Shown in pieces: positions 1 through 21,065 of a stretch of DNA of 36,890 nucleotides (its first letter is position 1; every line of letters starts with the position of its first letter). Position numbers and translations under genes: made by a program. The notes below the pieces were generated by a model. The model saw only the letters and a list, made by a program, of their open reading frames with translations. It did no database searches and was not told the origin of the DNA. The stretch is taken from NCBI GenBank assembly GCA_013203185.1, contig JABMOS010000011.1, positions 1 to 36,890 of the forward strand, written 5' to 3'. This DNA is from Fidelibacterota bacterium. Its GTDB lineage: Bacteria > Fidelibacterota > UBA8477 > JABMPR01.

Positions 1-14
1 CAAAGGAGTTTACC

Positions 15-242
15 ATGCAAATTAAAATAGAATATAGCGTTACCTGAAACTACCTACCTCGAGCAACCAGTTTGGTTGCAGGCATTCTAGATAGATTCGG
101 AAATGAAGTTCATGACTTGACCATTCTGCCATCATCAGGTGGAGTATATAATATATGGAAAGACGACAAACTGATCTTTTCAAAAAAAGAAGTGGGTCGA
201 TTCCCGCTAAGTGATGATGAGGTGATTAACCAATTGGGATAG
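15..242 (+). CDS. SelW/Rdx-family selenoprotein with in-frame TGA (Sec)
   Basis: A 75-codon frame opens with ATG at 15 behind a strong AAAGGAG ribosome binding site (2-8) and runs to TAG at 240-242, interrupted only by TGA at 45-47, codon 11. Reading TGA as selenocysteine (U) gives residues such as SVTU-NYLPRA near the N terminus and PSSGGVYNIW and GRFP further on, which match the thioredoxin-like SelT/SelW/SelH (Rdx) family. That family normally has CxxU or CxxC at this site; here the first position is Ser (AGC), so the motif is SxxU. The family is thought to act in thiol redox chemistry. A SECIS-like hairpin follows the TGA and a terminator follows the gene. A plain nonsense mutation is the alternative, but the preserved frame and hairpin argue against it. 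The Sec machinery is not in the window. Confidence 0.82.
57..82 (+). promoter_or_regulatory. Candidate bacterial SECIS element
   Basis: A perfect 6-bp stem, GCAACC (63-68) with GGTTGC (74-79), closes a 5-nt loop AGTTT. CCT (57-59) can pair with AGG (80-82) across a 3-nt bulge. The loop starts 21 nt after the TGA at 45-47 and has G as its second base. Known bacterial SECIS elements have a short apical stem, a G in the first two loop positions, and a loop about 16-37 nt after the UGA. All of these are met. SelB binding is inferred. Confidence 0.7.
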
Positions 243-286: not shown

Positions 287-316
287 AACCCAGGTTCATT
301 CTGAGCCTGGGTTTTT
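287..316 (+). terminator. Rho-independent terminator of the selenoprotein gene
   Basis: AACCCAGG (287-294) pairs with CCTGGGTT (306-313), the stem can extend inward by about three pairs, and a run of T follows (312-316). It lies 45 nt after the selenoprotein stop and separates that gene from the propeller/amidase cluster. Confidence 0.85.
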
Positions 317-465
317 ATTTCCTTCCAACCACAACCAATAAAACACCTGTAAGTATTGTAAATGTTAAGCTTTTGATATTTGAATAAGATCAATAAACAT
401 TTAGTTTGGTAAGAATATTTACAAACTAATTGAAATGAGACACAACGACCATAAATGGAGATACC

Positions 466-1421: not shown

Positions 1422-3932
1422 ATGAAAAAATTAATACTCTTTCTGTTACTTGGATCCGCCATGTTGAATGCTCAGGTTACTGGATTATCAGGTTGGAACA
1501 TTTTTGTCGATCCGGGTCATAGCATCACTCAAAACATGGGCATAAATGGTTATTCGGAAGCAGAAGAAACGCTTCAGACAGCACTCCATTTGCGCCAAAT
1601 GTTACTCTCCAAAACAGATATTGATACCGTCTGGTCTTCCCGATACAATGATCAGATCGAAGTGGGTCTTACCGAGCGTAGTACAGATGCTAACAATAGA
1701 GGCGCATCATGGTATCATTCTATTCACAGCAATGCTGGTGGCGCCACTAGTAACGATGTCCTATTGCTCTGGGGAGAACTATGGGACGGCACGCCTGATC
1801 CACCAGTGGGTGGAGAGGCCATGAGTGATATCATGGTCGATCTTCTGGCTGATGTGATGAGGATCCCTCAAAACGGTTGGGGATCTACAGGGGATTGTAG
1901 CTTTTATTCAGGATGGGCATCAACACCCTGTACTCAAAACGGATTTCAGGGTCCCTATCTTTCGGTGAACCGACGCACCAATATGCCCAGCGAATTGAGT
2001 GAACAGGGACATCATACCCATCCCCTACAAAACCAGCTTGATATGAACACTGATTATTGTCGCATGATGGCCTACAGTATGTTTTGGACTATTCTTGACA
2101 AGTTTGATCTAGACAGGCCATACCCTGGGATTCTGGCGGGTATTGTTACTGATTCTGAGACTGGTGTCCGCGTGAATGGTGCCACCATTGAAGTCAATGG
2201 CCTATCCTATACCACAGATACATACGAATCTCAGTTCAATCAATACAGCTCAGACCCCAATGAGCTGCACAATGGATTCTATTTCTTTGAAGGCCTGCCA
2301 GACTCAAGCTATGAGGTTGTCGTAACTGTAGAAGGATATTATACGGATACCTTGGTGGTGTCTGAGATGTCGCCGGATTTTGTGACCTTCATGGATATTC
2401 TTTTGGCTCCAAATACACCCCCCTATATCGTTGAATCCAACCCGGTAGAAGGTGATTCGCTCTACGGTGCCTGGAGAAACCCCTCCATTACCTTCTCTAG
2501 AGCCATGGACGAGGCTTCGGTTGAAGCCGCCTTTTCTATTGAGCCAGCAACGGCTGGGTCCTTCTATTTCACAAGCAGCTCCAAACGAATGTCATTTCTG
2601 GTTGAAGACTCTCTTGAATTTCTTACAAACTACACCATTACCATTGCAGGAACGGCAACTGACTTCTCTGGCAATCCTATTGACGGCAATCAGGATACTG
2701 TGGGAGGCGACGCCTGGAGTTTGCACTTCAGGACCGGACCTGAGGATATGTCACCCCCATTCGTGATAAATTCCACGCCTGTAAATGGCTCCAATACTGT
2801 GAATCTGAGACCCATTATCAATCTCGTTTGGAATGAAGAACTGGACTCTGCCAGTGTGACTTTGGATCGCATCGAGTTTGATAGAGTATCTGACAGCCAG
2901 GCACAGCCTTTTTCTCTGGAACATCACGTCATCAATTCAAAAAGCGTGATGACGATCTACGCTTCCAGTGATTTATTGGATAGTGAAGCCTATCGCGTCC
3001 GTCTACTTCCAGGATTTGCCGACCTCTTTGGCAATACCCGTACCATCGAAACAATCATGAACTTTTCCACGGCAAATTATGACTTTAGCAGTACCTCTAT
3101 CGATAATTTTGAAACATCGGCTGTGAATTATTGGTGGGCCCTCCTTGGTTCAGGAAGTACTACTGGCGTCCTACCAGAAATAACACTTCGGGATTTTACA
3201 ACTGACCTCAGTGTCTTCACAGAAACTGACAGCATCTCCCTTCAGATAAATTACGGCTGGGATACCAGCGCCGACTCCTGGCTTATTCGTGAATATCTGG
3301 GTGGTGGTCCAGGAAGAAATATCCACTTTAATTCCAACAACATTATGCAAGCCTGGGTCTTTGGAGATGGAAATGGGAACACTTTTCGGTTCTGTGTTGA
3401 TGATAACATAGGCGGGGCAGGTGCTCATGAGGTAAGCCCATGGTATACAGTGAATTGGTATGGTTGGAAATTGGTCAGTTGGGATATGGCCGTTGACGGC
3501 ACTGGAACCTGGATCGGAGATGGAAACCTGGATGGTACCCTTGAATTTGACAGCTTCCAGTTCGGTTATACACCAGGCAACAACAATATTGGTACCTATC
3601 ACATTGACAATCTCCGTGTGGTTGACAGAAACTACCTTGATATAGATGAAACACAACTTCAGCAACCCGCCGAGCTTGCCTTGCTACCGAATTACCCCAA
3701 CCCCTTCAATCCCTGGACAACCATTCCATTTACCCTGGTTGAATCAGCTCGAGCTACAGTCACCATCTATAATCTGAGGGGAGAACTGGTAACCACCTTG
3801 ATTAGCGGACACCTTGGAGCAGGATATCATGAAACACGCTGGAATGCATCGGATGTATCCTCTGGCGTCTATTTGATCAAGTTGGAATCAAAAGGCGTGT
3901 CACAGACTCGCAAGATTATGGTTCTAAAATAG
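1422..3932 (+). CDS. Exported N-acetylmuramoyl-L-alanine amidase (Amidase_3) with Ig-like domains and T9SS tail
   Basis: The 836-residue protein has a signal peptide (1-17) and then a zinc amidase domain to about residue 225. The expected residues are visible: H33 in VDPGHS, E46, H101 in SIHSNA, and the catalytic-type E193 in a PxxLxExG motif. It would cleave the bond between MurNAc and the L-Ala of the stem peptide. After it come a carboxypeptidase-regulatory-like domain (about 235-328), two Big_5/Ig-like domains (about 330-560), a jelly-roll-like segment (about 565-740), and a C-terminal T9SS type A sorting domain containing NYPNPFNP and ending KIMVLK. T9SS cargo is surface-attached or secreted, so the substrate may be foreign or released peptidoglycan. 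GAGG precedes the ATG. A terminator follows. Confidence 0.9.
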   Translation: MKKLILFLLLGSAMLNAQVTGLSGWNIFVDPGHSITQNMGINGYSEAEETLQTALHLRQMLLSKTDIDTVWSSRYNDQIEVGLTERSTDANNRGASWYHSIHSNAGGATSNDVLLLWGELWDGTPDPPVGGEAMSDIMVDLLADVMRIPQNGWGSTGDCSFYSGWASTPCTQNGFQGPYLSVNRRTNMPSELSEQGHHTHPLQNQLDMNTDYCRMMAYSMFWTILDKFDLDRPYPGILAGIVTDSETGVRVNGATIEVNGLSYTTDTYESQFNQYSSDPNELHNGFYFFEGLPDSSYEVVVTVEGYYTDTLVVSEMSPDFVTFMDILLAPNTPPYIVESNPVEGDSLYGAWRNPSITFSRAMDEASVEAAFSIEPATAGSFYFTSSSKRMSFLVEDSLEFLTNYTITIAGTATDFSGNPIDGNQDTVGGDAWSLHFRTGPEDMSPPFVINSTPVNGSNTVNLRPIINLVWNEELDSASVTLDRIEFDRVSDSQAQPFSLEHHVINSKSVMTIYASSDLLDSEAYRVRLLPGFADLFGNTRTIETIMNFSTANYDFSSTSIDNFETSAVNYWWALLGSGSTTGVLPEITLRDFTTDLSVFTETDSISLQINYGWDTSADSWLIREYLGGGPGRNIHFNSNNIMQAWVFGDGNGNTFRFCVDDNIGGAGAHEVSPWYTVNWYGWKLVSWDMAVDGTGTWIGDGNLDGTLEFDSFQFGYTPGNNNIGTYHIDNLRVVDRNYLDIDETQLQQPAELALLPNYPNPFNPWTTIPFTLVESARATVTIYNLRGELVTTLISGHLGAGYHETRWNASDVSSGVYLIKLESKGVSQTRKIMVLK

Positions 3933-4004: not shown

Positions 4005-4075
4005 CATATGCGAGGTGATTGCATTAAAACATAAAAAACGGGGCCTTGAGATATTATCCCCGGGGAAGCAATACT

Positions 4076-4993
4076 TTGAAGATAAAATATTTTGCATTGA
4101 TCTTAATTCTGGCCACAAGTCTTCTTGGCAAGAACATCGTCATTAAGAACACTGAGCTCCTCCTGAGCGAAGGCAAGACCCCTTTCTATTTCCCCGTCTA
4201 TACCATAGATGGACAGTCCATTCTTTTGACTCAAAATGCTTATACTGGACTCTGGATACTTGACAGATCCTCAGAAGATCTGCGTCAGATCACCAAATCT
4301 CAAGGTGCTGGATTTGAACCCCGCAGTCTCCTGGACGGTTCTATCATATATCGTCAAGATGAATATGAGCAAGGCAGGAAGTTTACCTCCCTTTATAAAG
4401 CGGATACAACAGGCAATCATCTCATTGCAGATAGGGCTAGATTTGTTTCACCGGCCAATATGGTTGACCATAGGATGTACTATTTAATTGATGAAACACC
4501 AACCATCCTCAATGCCAGCAGCGGCACTCTTGAGAACAACCTGAAAAACTATACCACTATCCTGAATGACAAACTCTCACTAAAGCATTACAAGGCAGGC
4601 GTACAAAGCATTTTAGCTCCACATGGTCAAGGCAATTATATTTGGTCTGAGCTATCACCAACAGGTGATATGTTAGTCTTTACTAAAACAGGACAGGGAA
4701 CGTATGTCTGTGATCTTGATGGAAAAATTAGTGCTGACCTGGGGGTTGCCCATGCTGCAAGGTGGTCACCTGATGGGCAATACCTCGCCTACATGAAAGA
4801 CCTGGATGATGGCAGTCAGTATACGGAATCTGAGATCTGGATCGTCTCCTACGATGGGTCGCAATCATGGAAAATCACAGATACACCTCATATTATTGAG
4901 ATGTATCCGCAATGGTCTCCAGATGGACAGCGCTTGATCTATCACTCGCTCCGCGGTGAAATTTTCGAAACCTCCTTTGAGATTGTGGAGTAG
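4076..4993 (+). CDS. Secreted TolB/PD40-type beta-propeller protein, copy 2
   Basis: This is a diverged paralogue of the propeller protein at 466-1419, about 305 residues long. The start chosen is TTG at 4076: GGGGAAG stands just upstream and the first residues (MKIKYFALILILA) then form a clean signal peptide. An in-frame TTG at 4046 would add ten residues that spoil it. PD40 blades are clear in the second half (SPTGD, RWSPDGQ, QWSPDGQ), and the C-terminal region with a DDGS stretch aligns with copy 1. It is followed after 5 nt by the second amidase, as in copy 1. Function is inferred as an exported binding protein partnered with the amidase. Confidence 0.78.
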   Translation: MKIKYFALILILATSLLGKNIVIKNTELLLSEGKTPFYFPVYTIDGQSILLTQNAYTGLWILDRSSEDLRQITKSQGAGFEPRSLLDGSIIYRQDEYEQGRKFTSLYKADTTGNHLIADRARFVSPANMVDHRMYYLIDETPTILNASSGTLENNLKNYTTILNDKLSLKHYKAGVQSILAPHGQGNYIWSELSPTGDMLVFTKTGQGTYVCDLDGKISADLGVAHAARWSPDGQYLAYMKDLDDGSQYTESEIWIVSYDGSQSWKITDTPHIIEMYPQWSPDGQRLIYHSLRGEIFETSFEIVE

Positions 4994-4998
4994 GTGCA

Positions 4999-6672
4999 AT
5001 GATGAAAAAAATATTCCTGCTGGCAATGATGGCATCCATGGTCTGGGCACAGGACCTGAGCGGTGTAAGAATATGTATTGATCCCGGACACTCTGGGCAT
5101 GAAGGTGATGATAGATTTATGGAAGCAACCGGCTTCTGGGAATCTGAATCAAACCTCACCAAGGGGCTGGAACTAAGAGCTATCCTGCAAGGATTGGGTG
5201 CTGAGGTTGCCATCACCCGTACTGGGAATAATAACACAACTGATGATCTGGGGCTCTCTGAACGTGCGGCAGTGGCCAATAATTTCAACGCAGATTATTT
5301 CAATAGTAACCATAGCAATGGTTTTAATGGAACGGCGAACTATGCCATGGTTATTTATAATGGCACCACCAATTCACCGACCTTTCCACTGGCCCGCACC
5401 ATGGCCAATATCATGGCACCTCTTATTCATGATGTCAACCACACCACAAGCGATGTTTCTATTGGCGACCTGACATTAAATCCAACCTGGACCAATGGCT
5501 ACGGCGTACTTGTTCCAGCCAATATGCCTGCAACTATTTCTGAAGGCTCCTTCCATGACTATATCCCTGAATCATGGCGTCTCATGAATCTGGATTATCG
5601 TAAGCATGAAGCCATGGCGATGGCGCGTAGCTATCTTGAGTATTTTGGCCAGCCAGGCTTCACCGTAGGTGCCGTTGCCGGTTTAGTTAAGGATCCTGAA
5701 AATGTGGTCTCTTATTACTCAATTGGCTCACTTCAAGATCAATGGCTACCTGTCAATAATATTGAAGTCTCTGTGGAACCAGGTGGTCGTCGATACTATG
5801 GGGGCGAAAACAATAATGGTTATTTCAAAGTAGACAGTCTGGATCCTGGTACCTATGAAGTCATCGTTTCTGCTTCAGGATTTGCCACAGACACATCCAC
5901 AGTTACGGTATTGGCAAATCAAACAACCATGTCAAATTTTATGCTGGTAAACACAGCACCGCCTATAGTTATAGAATTTCATCCTGAAGAGGGAGATACT
6001 ACTTGGCCTGTTTGGGAAATCCCCTTCTTTGATTTTTCCAAGGCTATGGATAGAACCTCGCTTGAGAATGCCTTCTCCATTGAACCCTCGGTAGCCGGCA
6101 CTTTCTATTTGTCTGCTGACCTAAAACGCATGGCCTGGATTCTTGCAGATTCGCTGGAATTTCTTACAGATTATACCATCACAATCGCTGGCACTGCCAC
6201 GGATGTGGCAGGTCATCCCCTTGATGGGAATCAGGATGGTACCGGCGGAGATGATTTCACCGTATCCTTCAGGACAGGCTCCAGAGACTTTTTTCCACCT
6301 GTTATTGAAGAGACCTACCCCGATTCAAATGCTGAATTGGTGGATTTGCGTCCCGTTTTCAATATTGCCTGGGATGAAGAAATTCAATTCGATAACGAAG
6401 CAAATAGTCGAGTCGTTCTGCAACGGATCTATGATTTACAGATACAAGAAACCACTCTTGAACACTATGTCATCAACGATAAGAGTCTGCTGGTACTATA
6501 TGCCACAAATGATCTGCTTGATAATGAGCAGTACAGGGTAAGCATTTTACCTGGCTTCAGTGATATGCTAGGCAATAGTCAAAACTCAGAAACAACCATC
6601 GAGTTCACTACTTCCAACTATGATTATGCAGTAACTAATATTGACAACTTTGAAGCTGGCGTCGGTAACTAG
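4999..6672 (+). CDS. Amidase copy 2, N-terminal part, ended by an in-frame TAG
   Basis: This paralogue of the 1422-3932 amidase has a signal peptide (1-17) and intact zinc-amidase residues: H31 in IDPGHS, E48, H105 in NSNHSN, and E182 in PxxxSEGSF. Carboxypeptidase-regulatory-like and Big_5-like domains follow, as in copy 1. The frame stops at TAG (6670-6672, codon 558), exactly where copy 1 has a Tyr codon inside an NYWW stretch. Without any frameshift the reading frame continues to 7470 with the jelly-roll and T9SS domains. As read, the product is a 557-residue amidase that keeps its export signal and active site but lacks a sorting domain, so it may stay in the periplasm. A nonsense mutation, a sequencing error or suppression are all possible. 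Confidence 0.8.
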   Translation: MMKKIFLLAMMASMVWAQDLSGVRICIDPGHSGHEGDDRFMEATGFWESESNLTKGLELRAILQGLGAEVAITRTGNNNTTDDLGLSERAAVANNFNADYFNSNHSNGFNGTANYAMVIYNGTTNSPTFPLARTMANIMAPLIHDVNHTTSDVSIGDLTLNPTWTNGYGVLVPANMPATISEGSFHDYIPESWRLMNLDYRKHEAMAMARSYLEYFGQPGFTVGAVAGLVKDPENVVSYYSIGSLQDQWLPVNNIEVSVEPGGRRYYGGENNNGYFKVDSLDPGTYEVIVSASGFATDTSTVTVLANQTTMSNFMLVNTAPPIVIEFHPEEGDTTWPVWEIPFFDFSKAMDRTSLENAFSIEPSVAGTFYLSADLKRMAWILADSLEFLTDYTITIAGTATDVAGHPLDGNQDGTGGDDFTVSFRTGSRDFFPPVIEETYPDSNAELVDLRPVFNIAWDEEIQFDNEANSRVVLQRIYDLQIQETTLEHYVINDKSLLVLYATNDLLDNEQYRVSILPGFSDMLGNSQNSETTIEFTTSNYDYAVTNIDNFEAGVGN

Positions 6673-7470
6673 TGGCCACCCAGTGGCAGCGGGAGCACGA
6701 CTGGCATTGATGGTGATCTCACATCCCATACCGCCAGCACTGAAACAAGCGCACTGAATATTGGCAGCAATACAGCCATGGCGTTGAATTACACCTGGAT
6801 TGAAAGCGCCGGTGCCTGGCTATTGCGAGAGTATCTTGGAGGTGGAGCTCCCCGAAATGTCCACTTTAATTCCAACCGAATCATGCAGGCCTTCATCTTT
6901 GGCGATGGAAATGGTAATAAGTTCAGGTTTTGTGTCGATGATAACATCACAGGTGGTGGCGCCCATGAAGTCAGCCCCTGGTATACTATTGATTGGGTGG
7001 GCTGGAGACTGGTGAGCTGGGATATGGCCATGGATGGCACAGGTACCTGGATCGGAGACGGCACTCTGGACGGTACCCTTGAATTTGACAGTATTCAGCT
7101 TACTTATGAACCTGGTCAACCTGTCACAGGTGTTTACTATATTGATGATCTACGGGTCGTTACCCGGGATTATCTGGCATTAGGTGATGCTGGTGTTGGA
7201 CATCCTCTTGAGTTCGCGCTGCTTCCCAACTATCCCAATCCATTTAACCCCTGGACCAGTATTCCATTTACACTGCCTGAATATGCTGAAGTCTCCATAC
7301 AAGTTTATGATCTCAAGGGACACGAAGTGGCCCATCTCCTCAGTGGTCCACTGGCGGCCGGACACCATGTGACCCGGTGGAATGCCTCTGACATGTCTTC
7401 AGGTCTCTATCTGGTTAAAATGACAGCCAATGATATCTCCATCACACGCAAGATTACGGTTCTTAAGTAA
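6673..7470 (+). pseudogene. Amidase copy 2, C-terminal remainder with T9SS sorting domain
   Basis: This stretch is in the same frame as 4999-6672 and follows its TAG directly. It aligns throughout with the last 265 or so residues of the copy 1 amidase: GSGSTTG, LREYLGGG, FGDGNGN, SWDMAMDGTGTWIGDG, then the sorting domain with NYPNPFNP, ending KITVLK. It has no signal peptide and no evident ribosome binding site; the first ATG (6778) lies inside the jelly-roll-like domain, so independent translation is unlikely. The sequence is otherwise undamaged, which points to a recent lesion, an error, or readthrough. With the TAG read through, the protein would be 823 residues, close to the 836 of copy 1. 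Confidence 0.75.
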
Positions 7471-20234: not shown

Positions 20235-21065
20235 TTAATTCAGCTCCTGTAAGGTCTTGGGCAATACTTCGATTAACTCAAACGCTTCCCTCGTTATTTC
20301 CTTATGATACTGAGCCTGCATATTATCGGTAAGTTCGATATTTGTAGCAAAAAACCAAACCTGATCCCCCTTTTCAACATACCCCACCCACCAGGTATGT
20401 TCTCCATCACCTCGAACTGCCCACCCCGTTTTTCCACGGATTGTATGGTCATCTGTATGTTCAACCATCATAAACTCCTTGACGAGCTCGATATTTTCAG
20501 CTTTAAAGGGCAGATCATTTTTATAGAGCTTCTTGAGAAAAGCGATTTGTTGCACTGCAGTAATTCGGAGGTCCCCATCCAACCAAAATCTAGAAACATC
20601 CGACCCAGTCATCATATTGCCGTAATCCAGCTGTTTTAGATGTTGGAGATATTTTTCATTCCCAATTCTCCTGGCCAACTCCTGATAAAACCAGACACAG
20701 GATACTGGAAAAGCAGTCCGCATAGAATGGTCCTGGTTCCAGGCATCAAGAAATCTAACTTCGCCGTCCCATTTAAACACTTCATCGGGACTGGAAACTG
20801 CACCCTCTTCCAGAGCAATCAGTGAATTTGGTATTTTGAAGGTTGATGCCGGCAACAATGGTTTGTTTGCGCGTTCTGGATAGGCTTGAAATACTTGTGA
20901 TCCATCCAAGGTACTTATGACCATGGTTCCTTCTACCCCGCGCTGGGTAAAAAGTGGTTCCAAATCAAGAGGAGGAGTGGATCTAGAACATGAAGCAAGA
21001 GTTGCCAGCACGACTAGGATAACTAGCTGATTTTTTGCTAAACCCATTACCCACCTTGCTTTCAT
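20235..21065 (-). CDS. Class D (OXA-type) beta-lactamase, lipoprotein
   Basis: The 276-residue protein carries all class D landmarks: S74-T-F-K77, S122-C-V124, Y148-G-N150, and K212-T-G214, with the FWLDGDLRI segment near 160. It would hydrolyse beta-lactams through the acyl-serine and carboxylated lysine mechanism. A lipobox places Cys26 (LASC) at the mature N terminus, so it should be membrane-anchored. ATG at 21065 lacks a clear ribosome binding site; ATG at 21047 has AAGGTGG close by and is a fair alternative. There are no mobile elements nearby, so it is probably intrinsic. Activity could be weak or directed elsewhere. Confidence 0.92.
   Translation of the reverse strand: MKARWVMGLAKNQLVILVVLATLASCSRSTPPLDLEPLFTQRGVEGTMVISTLDGSQVFQAYPERANKPLLPASTFKIPNSLIALEEGAVSSPDEVFKWDGEVRFLDAWNQDHSMRTAFPVSCVWFYQELARRIGNEKYLQHLKQLDYGNMMTGSDVSRFWLDGDLRITAVQQIAFLKKLYKNDLPFKAENIELVKEFMMVEHTDDHTIRGKTGWAVRGDGEHTWWVGYVEKGDQVWFFATNIELTDNMQAQYHKEITREAFELIEVLPKTLQELN

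Follow-up and report, generated by a model that had tools for sequence, protein, structure and literature searches.

The stretch of DNA analyzed here, called the window, is 36,890 nt long and is the whole of contig C94 in the draft genome of a marine bacterium (3.07 Mb, 155 contigs, 82% complete). A small gene, selW, begins at base 15 of this contig. As deposited, its letters read ATG at 15, AGC at 36–38, TGA at 45–47, and the stop codon TAG at 240–242. A profile search of the 75-residue frame, with the TGA read through, matches the Rdx domain (Pfam PF10262) at 58.8 bits versus a cut-off of 22.6, and the family CXXU_selWTH (TIGR02174) at 47.4 bits versus a cut-off of 34.2. The top score among NCBIfam profiles is that of NF041051 (SelTWH_Campy, a SelT/SelW/SelH family (seleno)protein), which covers residues 3–74 at 70.9 bits, below its own cut-off of 88, so that equivalog status is not reached. 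Solved relatives of the frame amount to six sequences (best E 5.5e-9), one of which is named selenoprotein W-related. Judged by these matches, the Rdx assignment of the frame at 15–242 is beyond chance, and the protein presumably works as a thiol/selenol oxidoreductase.

A first-pass annotation of this DNA had proposed that, if the TGA stands for selenocysteine (Sec), the frame gives a complete Rdx-family protein with its own ribosome binding site, a SECIS-like hairpin, and a terminator. All of these elements were recovered. The frame runs intact from ATG to TAG with both family profiles over their cut-offs, and the hairpin and terminator-like stems lie at the positions given in Table 1. Among the 17 same-genus relatives, the ribosome binding site position is occupied by AGGAG in 13, AGGAA in three, and GAGG in one.

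Table 1. Features at the start of contig C94 (positions are those of the window).
Feature	Positions	Strand	Basis and remarks
Dovetail with the tip of contig C95 (own genome)	1–82	+	3 substitutions, 1 inserted base
Ribosome binding site AGGAG	4–8	+	Sequence and relatives
selW-like (Rdx family) selenoprotein gene	15–242	+	75 residues with TGA 45–47 as Sec; profiles and same-genus relatives
AGC (Ser), versus TGC/TGT (Cys) in C95 and 17 same-genus relatives	36–38	+	Overlap and relatives; probably contig-end error or minor variant
In-frame TGA, predicted Sec	45–47	+	Kept in 17/17 same-genus matches outside the own genome; Sec machinery in genome
Bacterial SECIS-like stem-loop	63–79	+	Fold; inner five pairs show conservation and covariation, outer two poorly conserved
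Terminator-like stem (287–313) with T-rich tail	287–321	+	Fold downstream of the gene

The genes that follow in the window encode beta-propeller repeats (466–1419) and an amidase domain with a Por secretion tail (1422–3932), and have no evident link to selW. Beta-propeller-like and amidase-like genes alternate twice (466–1419 and 1422–3932, then 4046–4993 and 4999–6672) in what looks like a duplicated gene pair, and a separate frame at 6778–7470 is similar to what the first amidase gene encodes at its C terminus. On the minus strand, a reading frame at 20235–21065 looks by eye like one for a class D beta-lactamase or a penicillin-binding enzyme of related type, with motifs resembling STFK and KTG.

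The TGA at 45–47 is predicted to be read as Sec, with SelB and tRNA-Sec decoding the UGA by way of a SECIS stem-loop that follows it closely. The first-pass annotation, which had proposed Sec decoding, pointed to selA, selB, selC, and selD elsewhere in the genome as a check. In profile searches of the own genome, selA, selB, tRNA-Sec (anticodon tca), and selD all match above curated cut-offs, and an in-frame TGA is also present in selD, near the N-terminus of its product. A same-genus search matched the frame in 18 of 19 genomes, the own genome included; the one genome that lacks a match (G016) is 63% complete. At all 17 matches outside the own genome the TGA is in frame, with Rdx protein on both sides of it. 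Twelve loci come from named genomes, namely 11 of Candidatus Neomarinimicrobiota, some of which are the same genomes as the same-genus loci, and one of Candidatus Obscuribacterales with a CGAU motif. On this basis the window very probably belongs to the phylum Candidatus Neomarinimicrobiota. Recoding is supported because the Sec machinery is present in the own genome and the TGA is in frame in every one of the 17 relatives.

The RNA from the TGA onward can form a stem of seven pairs that starts 18 bases downstream, counted from the T of the TGA. As a single sequence its fold is unexceptional (z −1.39; 19 of 200 shuffles are as good), and Rfam gave no match at the gathering score within the 36,890-nt window. 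The support comes from comparison. In 45 distinct sequences (the window included, one sequence with N dropped, and kinship ignored in the statistics), the five inner pairs account for 218 paired cells out of 225; 1000 rounds of shuffling, in which synonymous codons were swapped within alignment columns, gave a mean of 198.8 and a maximum of 206. When the stem is slid by 1 to 3 bases, 33 to 104 of the 225 cells are paired. The two outer pairs are formed in 36 and 24 of the 45 sequences, and all seven pairs together in 278 of 315 cells (shuffle mean 258.7, maximum 267). Three of the five inner pairs change on both sides somewhere among the 45 sequences: the third of the seven pairs is A-T, G-C, C-G, or T-A, the fourth is G-C or A-T, and the sixth is C-G or, once, T-A. 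Some of these paired changes coincide with amino-acid changes.

Under the standard code the frame ends at TGA 45–47, and what follows would then be the remainder of a decayed gene. The Sec machinery of the own genome, the conserved, covarying inner hairpin, and a TGA that all 17 relatives keep at the Sec position, followed by conserved protein, all speak against a plain stop, which we reject as having next to no chance of being correct.

The gene shares with bacterial SelW-like selenoproteins (PF10262/TIGR02174) a profile match over most of the protein, a TGA at the Sec position, and a SECIS-like hairpin. It differs from them in its letters at one position: the motif of those proteins is CxxU, whereas the window spells SxxU, a spelling contradicted by an overlapping contig and by relatives. 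In the part of the 2008 GOS survey available to us, SelW-like selenoproteins with the motif CxxU number 427 in 40 samples, the highest number among the table rows listed (PMC2398784). The spelling S-x-x-U does occur in different protein families, as S/TxxU in peroxiredoxin and as C/SxxU in a putative mercuric transport protein, according to the available portions of two reports (PMC1794560, PMC13188914). In the parts available of the selenoprotein literature searched for SxxU, no SxxU was found in SelW-like proteins.

The AGC codon lies 36 bases from the end of C94. The search of the own genome also matched the tip of contig C95. The last 83 bases of contig C95 dovetail with bases 1–82 of C94 at 95% identity; C95 ends inside the same gene and reads TGC (Cys) at this codon. 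Moreover, C95 and C94 map side by side and in order, meeting at the selW gene, in all 13 related loci that were compared, a set that includes some genomes twice. Therefore, it is reasoned that the two contig ends are one gene split by assembly, not two copies. A second paralogue on C95 was rejected given this adjacency and given that C95 ends exactly where its dovetail of 82–83 bases with C94 does.

Neither tip agrees fully with the 17 same-genus relatives, whose loci were extracted for this base comparison (as for the hairpin set, where AGC was also allowed) by expressions that demand Cys. Base 29 (A, third place of codon 5; A in 0 of 17) and base 36 are private to C94. An extra A that shifts the frame, inserted at about C94 bases 24–27, and CAA for Arg-16, a residue invariant in an alignment of 29 proteins, are private to C95. 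Since each contig departs twice from the sequence kept by relatives, both tips look unreliable. The four differences in the overlap are what would be expected of unreliable tips, or of a strain mixture broken at a variable spot. An argument that the oddities lie nearer to each contig's own end was dropped, as the C95 insertion is nearer to the end of C94; because the overlap is only 82 bases long, the place of a difference within it does not show which contig is wrong.

Imperfect overlaps occur at other contig ends of this genome as well, for example between C85 and C90 (96% over 78 bases), C90 and C105 (96% over 105), and C88 and C100 (95% over 146). These show that an assembly break may land in variable or repeated sequence. 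Several of the matches are repeats, and the control, which took in 60 ends of 40 contigs (of 155), gives no error rate. The ends with mutual imperfect overlaps or repeats belong to C85, C90, C102, C105, C86, C93, C99, C88, and C100.

SxxU members among SelW-like proteins, for which the first-pass annotation had suggested a search, did not emerge. When residue 8 was left free in the search, it was Cys in 17 of 17 same-genus proteins. Across the phylum, 245 genomes (one genome per species) were surveyed with a DNA pattern that required Tyr, a Ser or Cys codon, TGA, Tyr, and Arg-Ala; the pattern thus covered Ser and Cys at residue 8, and other residues or other flanking letters lie outside it. 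The Cys pattern is present in 91 of the 245 genomes, and by this count the SelW-like gene is common in the phylum. The own genome scores zero in the Cys search, with Ser in C94 and a C95 tip that departs from the pattern at the Arg codon. The Ser patterns (AGY and TCN) gave only the window and two chance matches in the 245 genomes. AGY was found in two genomes, the window's own and G139, where the match lies within a different gene: stops lie close downstream in the frame of the match and another frame is open. TCN was found in one (G131), where no Rdx protein is read and the match runs into the end of a different open frame. Both were rejected as chance.

At the protein level, 47 loci (17 of the same genus and 30 others) were read from the 91 genomes with the Cys pattern. 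An alignment of 29 proteins combined the window with 16 of the 17 same-genus loci (all but L031) and 12 of the 30 from other genera. The window row alone lacks Cys at column 8; 16 rows are informative on this point, the 12 others having Cys by construction.

In ordinary CxxU proteins, according to established or inferred chemistry, the selenol of Sec attacks the substrate, and the intermediate is then resolved by the Cys that precedes Sec by three residues; the selW product would be expected to act in the same way if its residue 8 is Cys. Were the serine real, the species or strain would have an SxxU SelW-like protein in which glutathione or the thiol of a partner resolves the intermediate. 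A candidate for such a partner lies nearby. On C95, a gene for a DCC1-like thiol-disulfide oxidoreductase (Pfam PF04134; L052:11464–11883, minus strand) is divergent from selW, and 12 of the 17 same-genus loci have a DCC1-like gene no more than about 1.5 kb away from selW; the encoded oxidoreductase is possibly a redox partner of the selW product. The serine also has in its favor that AGC is what the deposited contig C94 reads, and that the rest of the C94 frame is intact, whereas the Cys-bearing tip of C95 is frame-shifted. However, the DCC1-like neighbor also stands beside CxxU relatives, and it is present in 0 of 30 other-genus loci, in which flanks of up to about 1.5 kb were covered; as an obligate partner it is thus unsupported. 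Further against the serine are the TGC of the overlapping contig, the Cys in all 17 relatives, the yield of the Ser patterns in the phylum, and the nearby base 29, which is likewise private to C94. Taken with these points, a real serine resolved by another thiol is very improbable, though with one genome per species a serine specific to this species keeps a small probability. A genuine strain- or species-level SxxU SelW-like selenoprotein without a resolving Cys, which would be the sole one seen in the phylum, is very improbable.

The reading we favor, with a probability of roughly nine in ten, is an ordinary CxxU SelW-like selenoprotein whose Ser codon at 36 arose at the end of C94 through faulty sequencing or assembly, or else reflects a minor variant among strains. 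The TGC of the overlapping contig and the Cys of the related genomes make this the most likely origin of the serine. Counting against the error-or-variant explanation is that C95 is not clean either, and because C95 also carries the extra base and CAA for the conserved Arg, neither contig end is taken as the truth by itself; the majority sequence of the species probably has Cys at residue 8. Of the SxxU selenoprotein claimed in the first-pass annotation, the AGC letters are indeed there, and the serine as a true feature is not confirmed, given the TGC of C95 and the Cys of 17 of 17 relatives. That annotation had itself held that reads with TGC at 36–38 would refute only the SxxU part; C95, standing in for reads, comes close to providing this. 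The different catalytic cycle that had been suggested is, like the motif, unsupported.

A second selenium-related gene run lies upstream on C95. At L052:4462–7598, about 4.4–7.5 kb upstream of selW, profile searches find YqeC, MocA-like, YqeB, and XdhC-like genes, of which YqeC and YqeB score above their cut-offs and the MocA-like and XdhC-like genes below theirs. By their profile matches, YqeC and YqeB are assigned to the maturation of selenium-dependent molybdenum hydroxylase, to which we take the MocA-like and XdhC-like proteins to be tied as well. Because of this run, two selenium traits share a neighborhood. Some related loci, L050 and L055 among them, show DNA similarity to parts of the run.

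Standard-code gene calling would cut this selenoprotein gene at the TGA. The case shows that, when an odd residue falls within a few dozen bases of the end of a draft contig, any overlapping contig should be consulted before the residue is taken as part of a new catalytic motif. As far as can be judged from sequence comparison, the start of C94 does encode a small, selenium-containing redox protein, and its gene is a further member of a well-known family, the SelW-like/Rdx selenoproteins.
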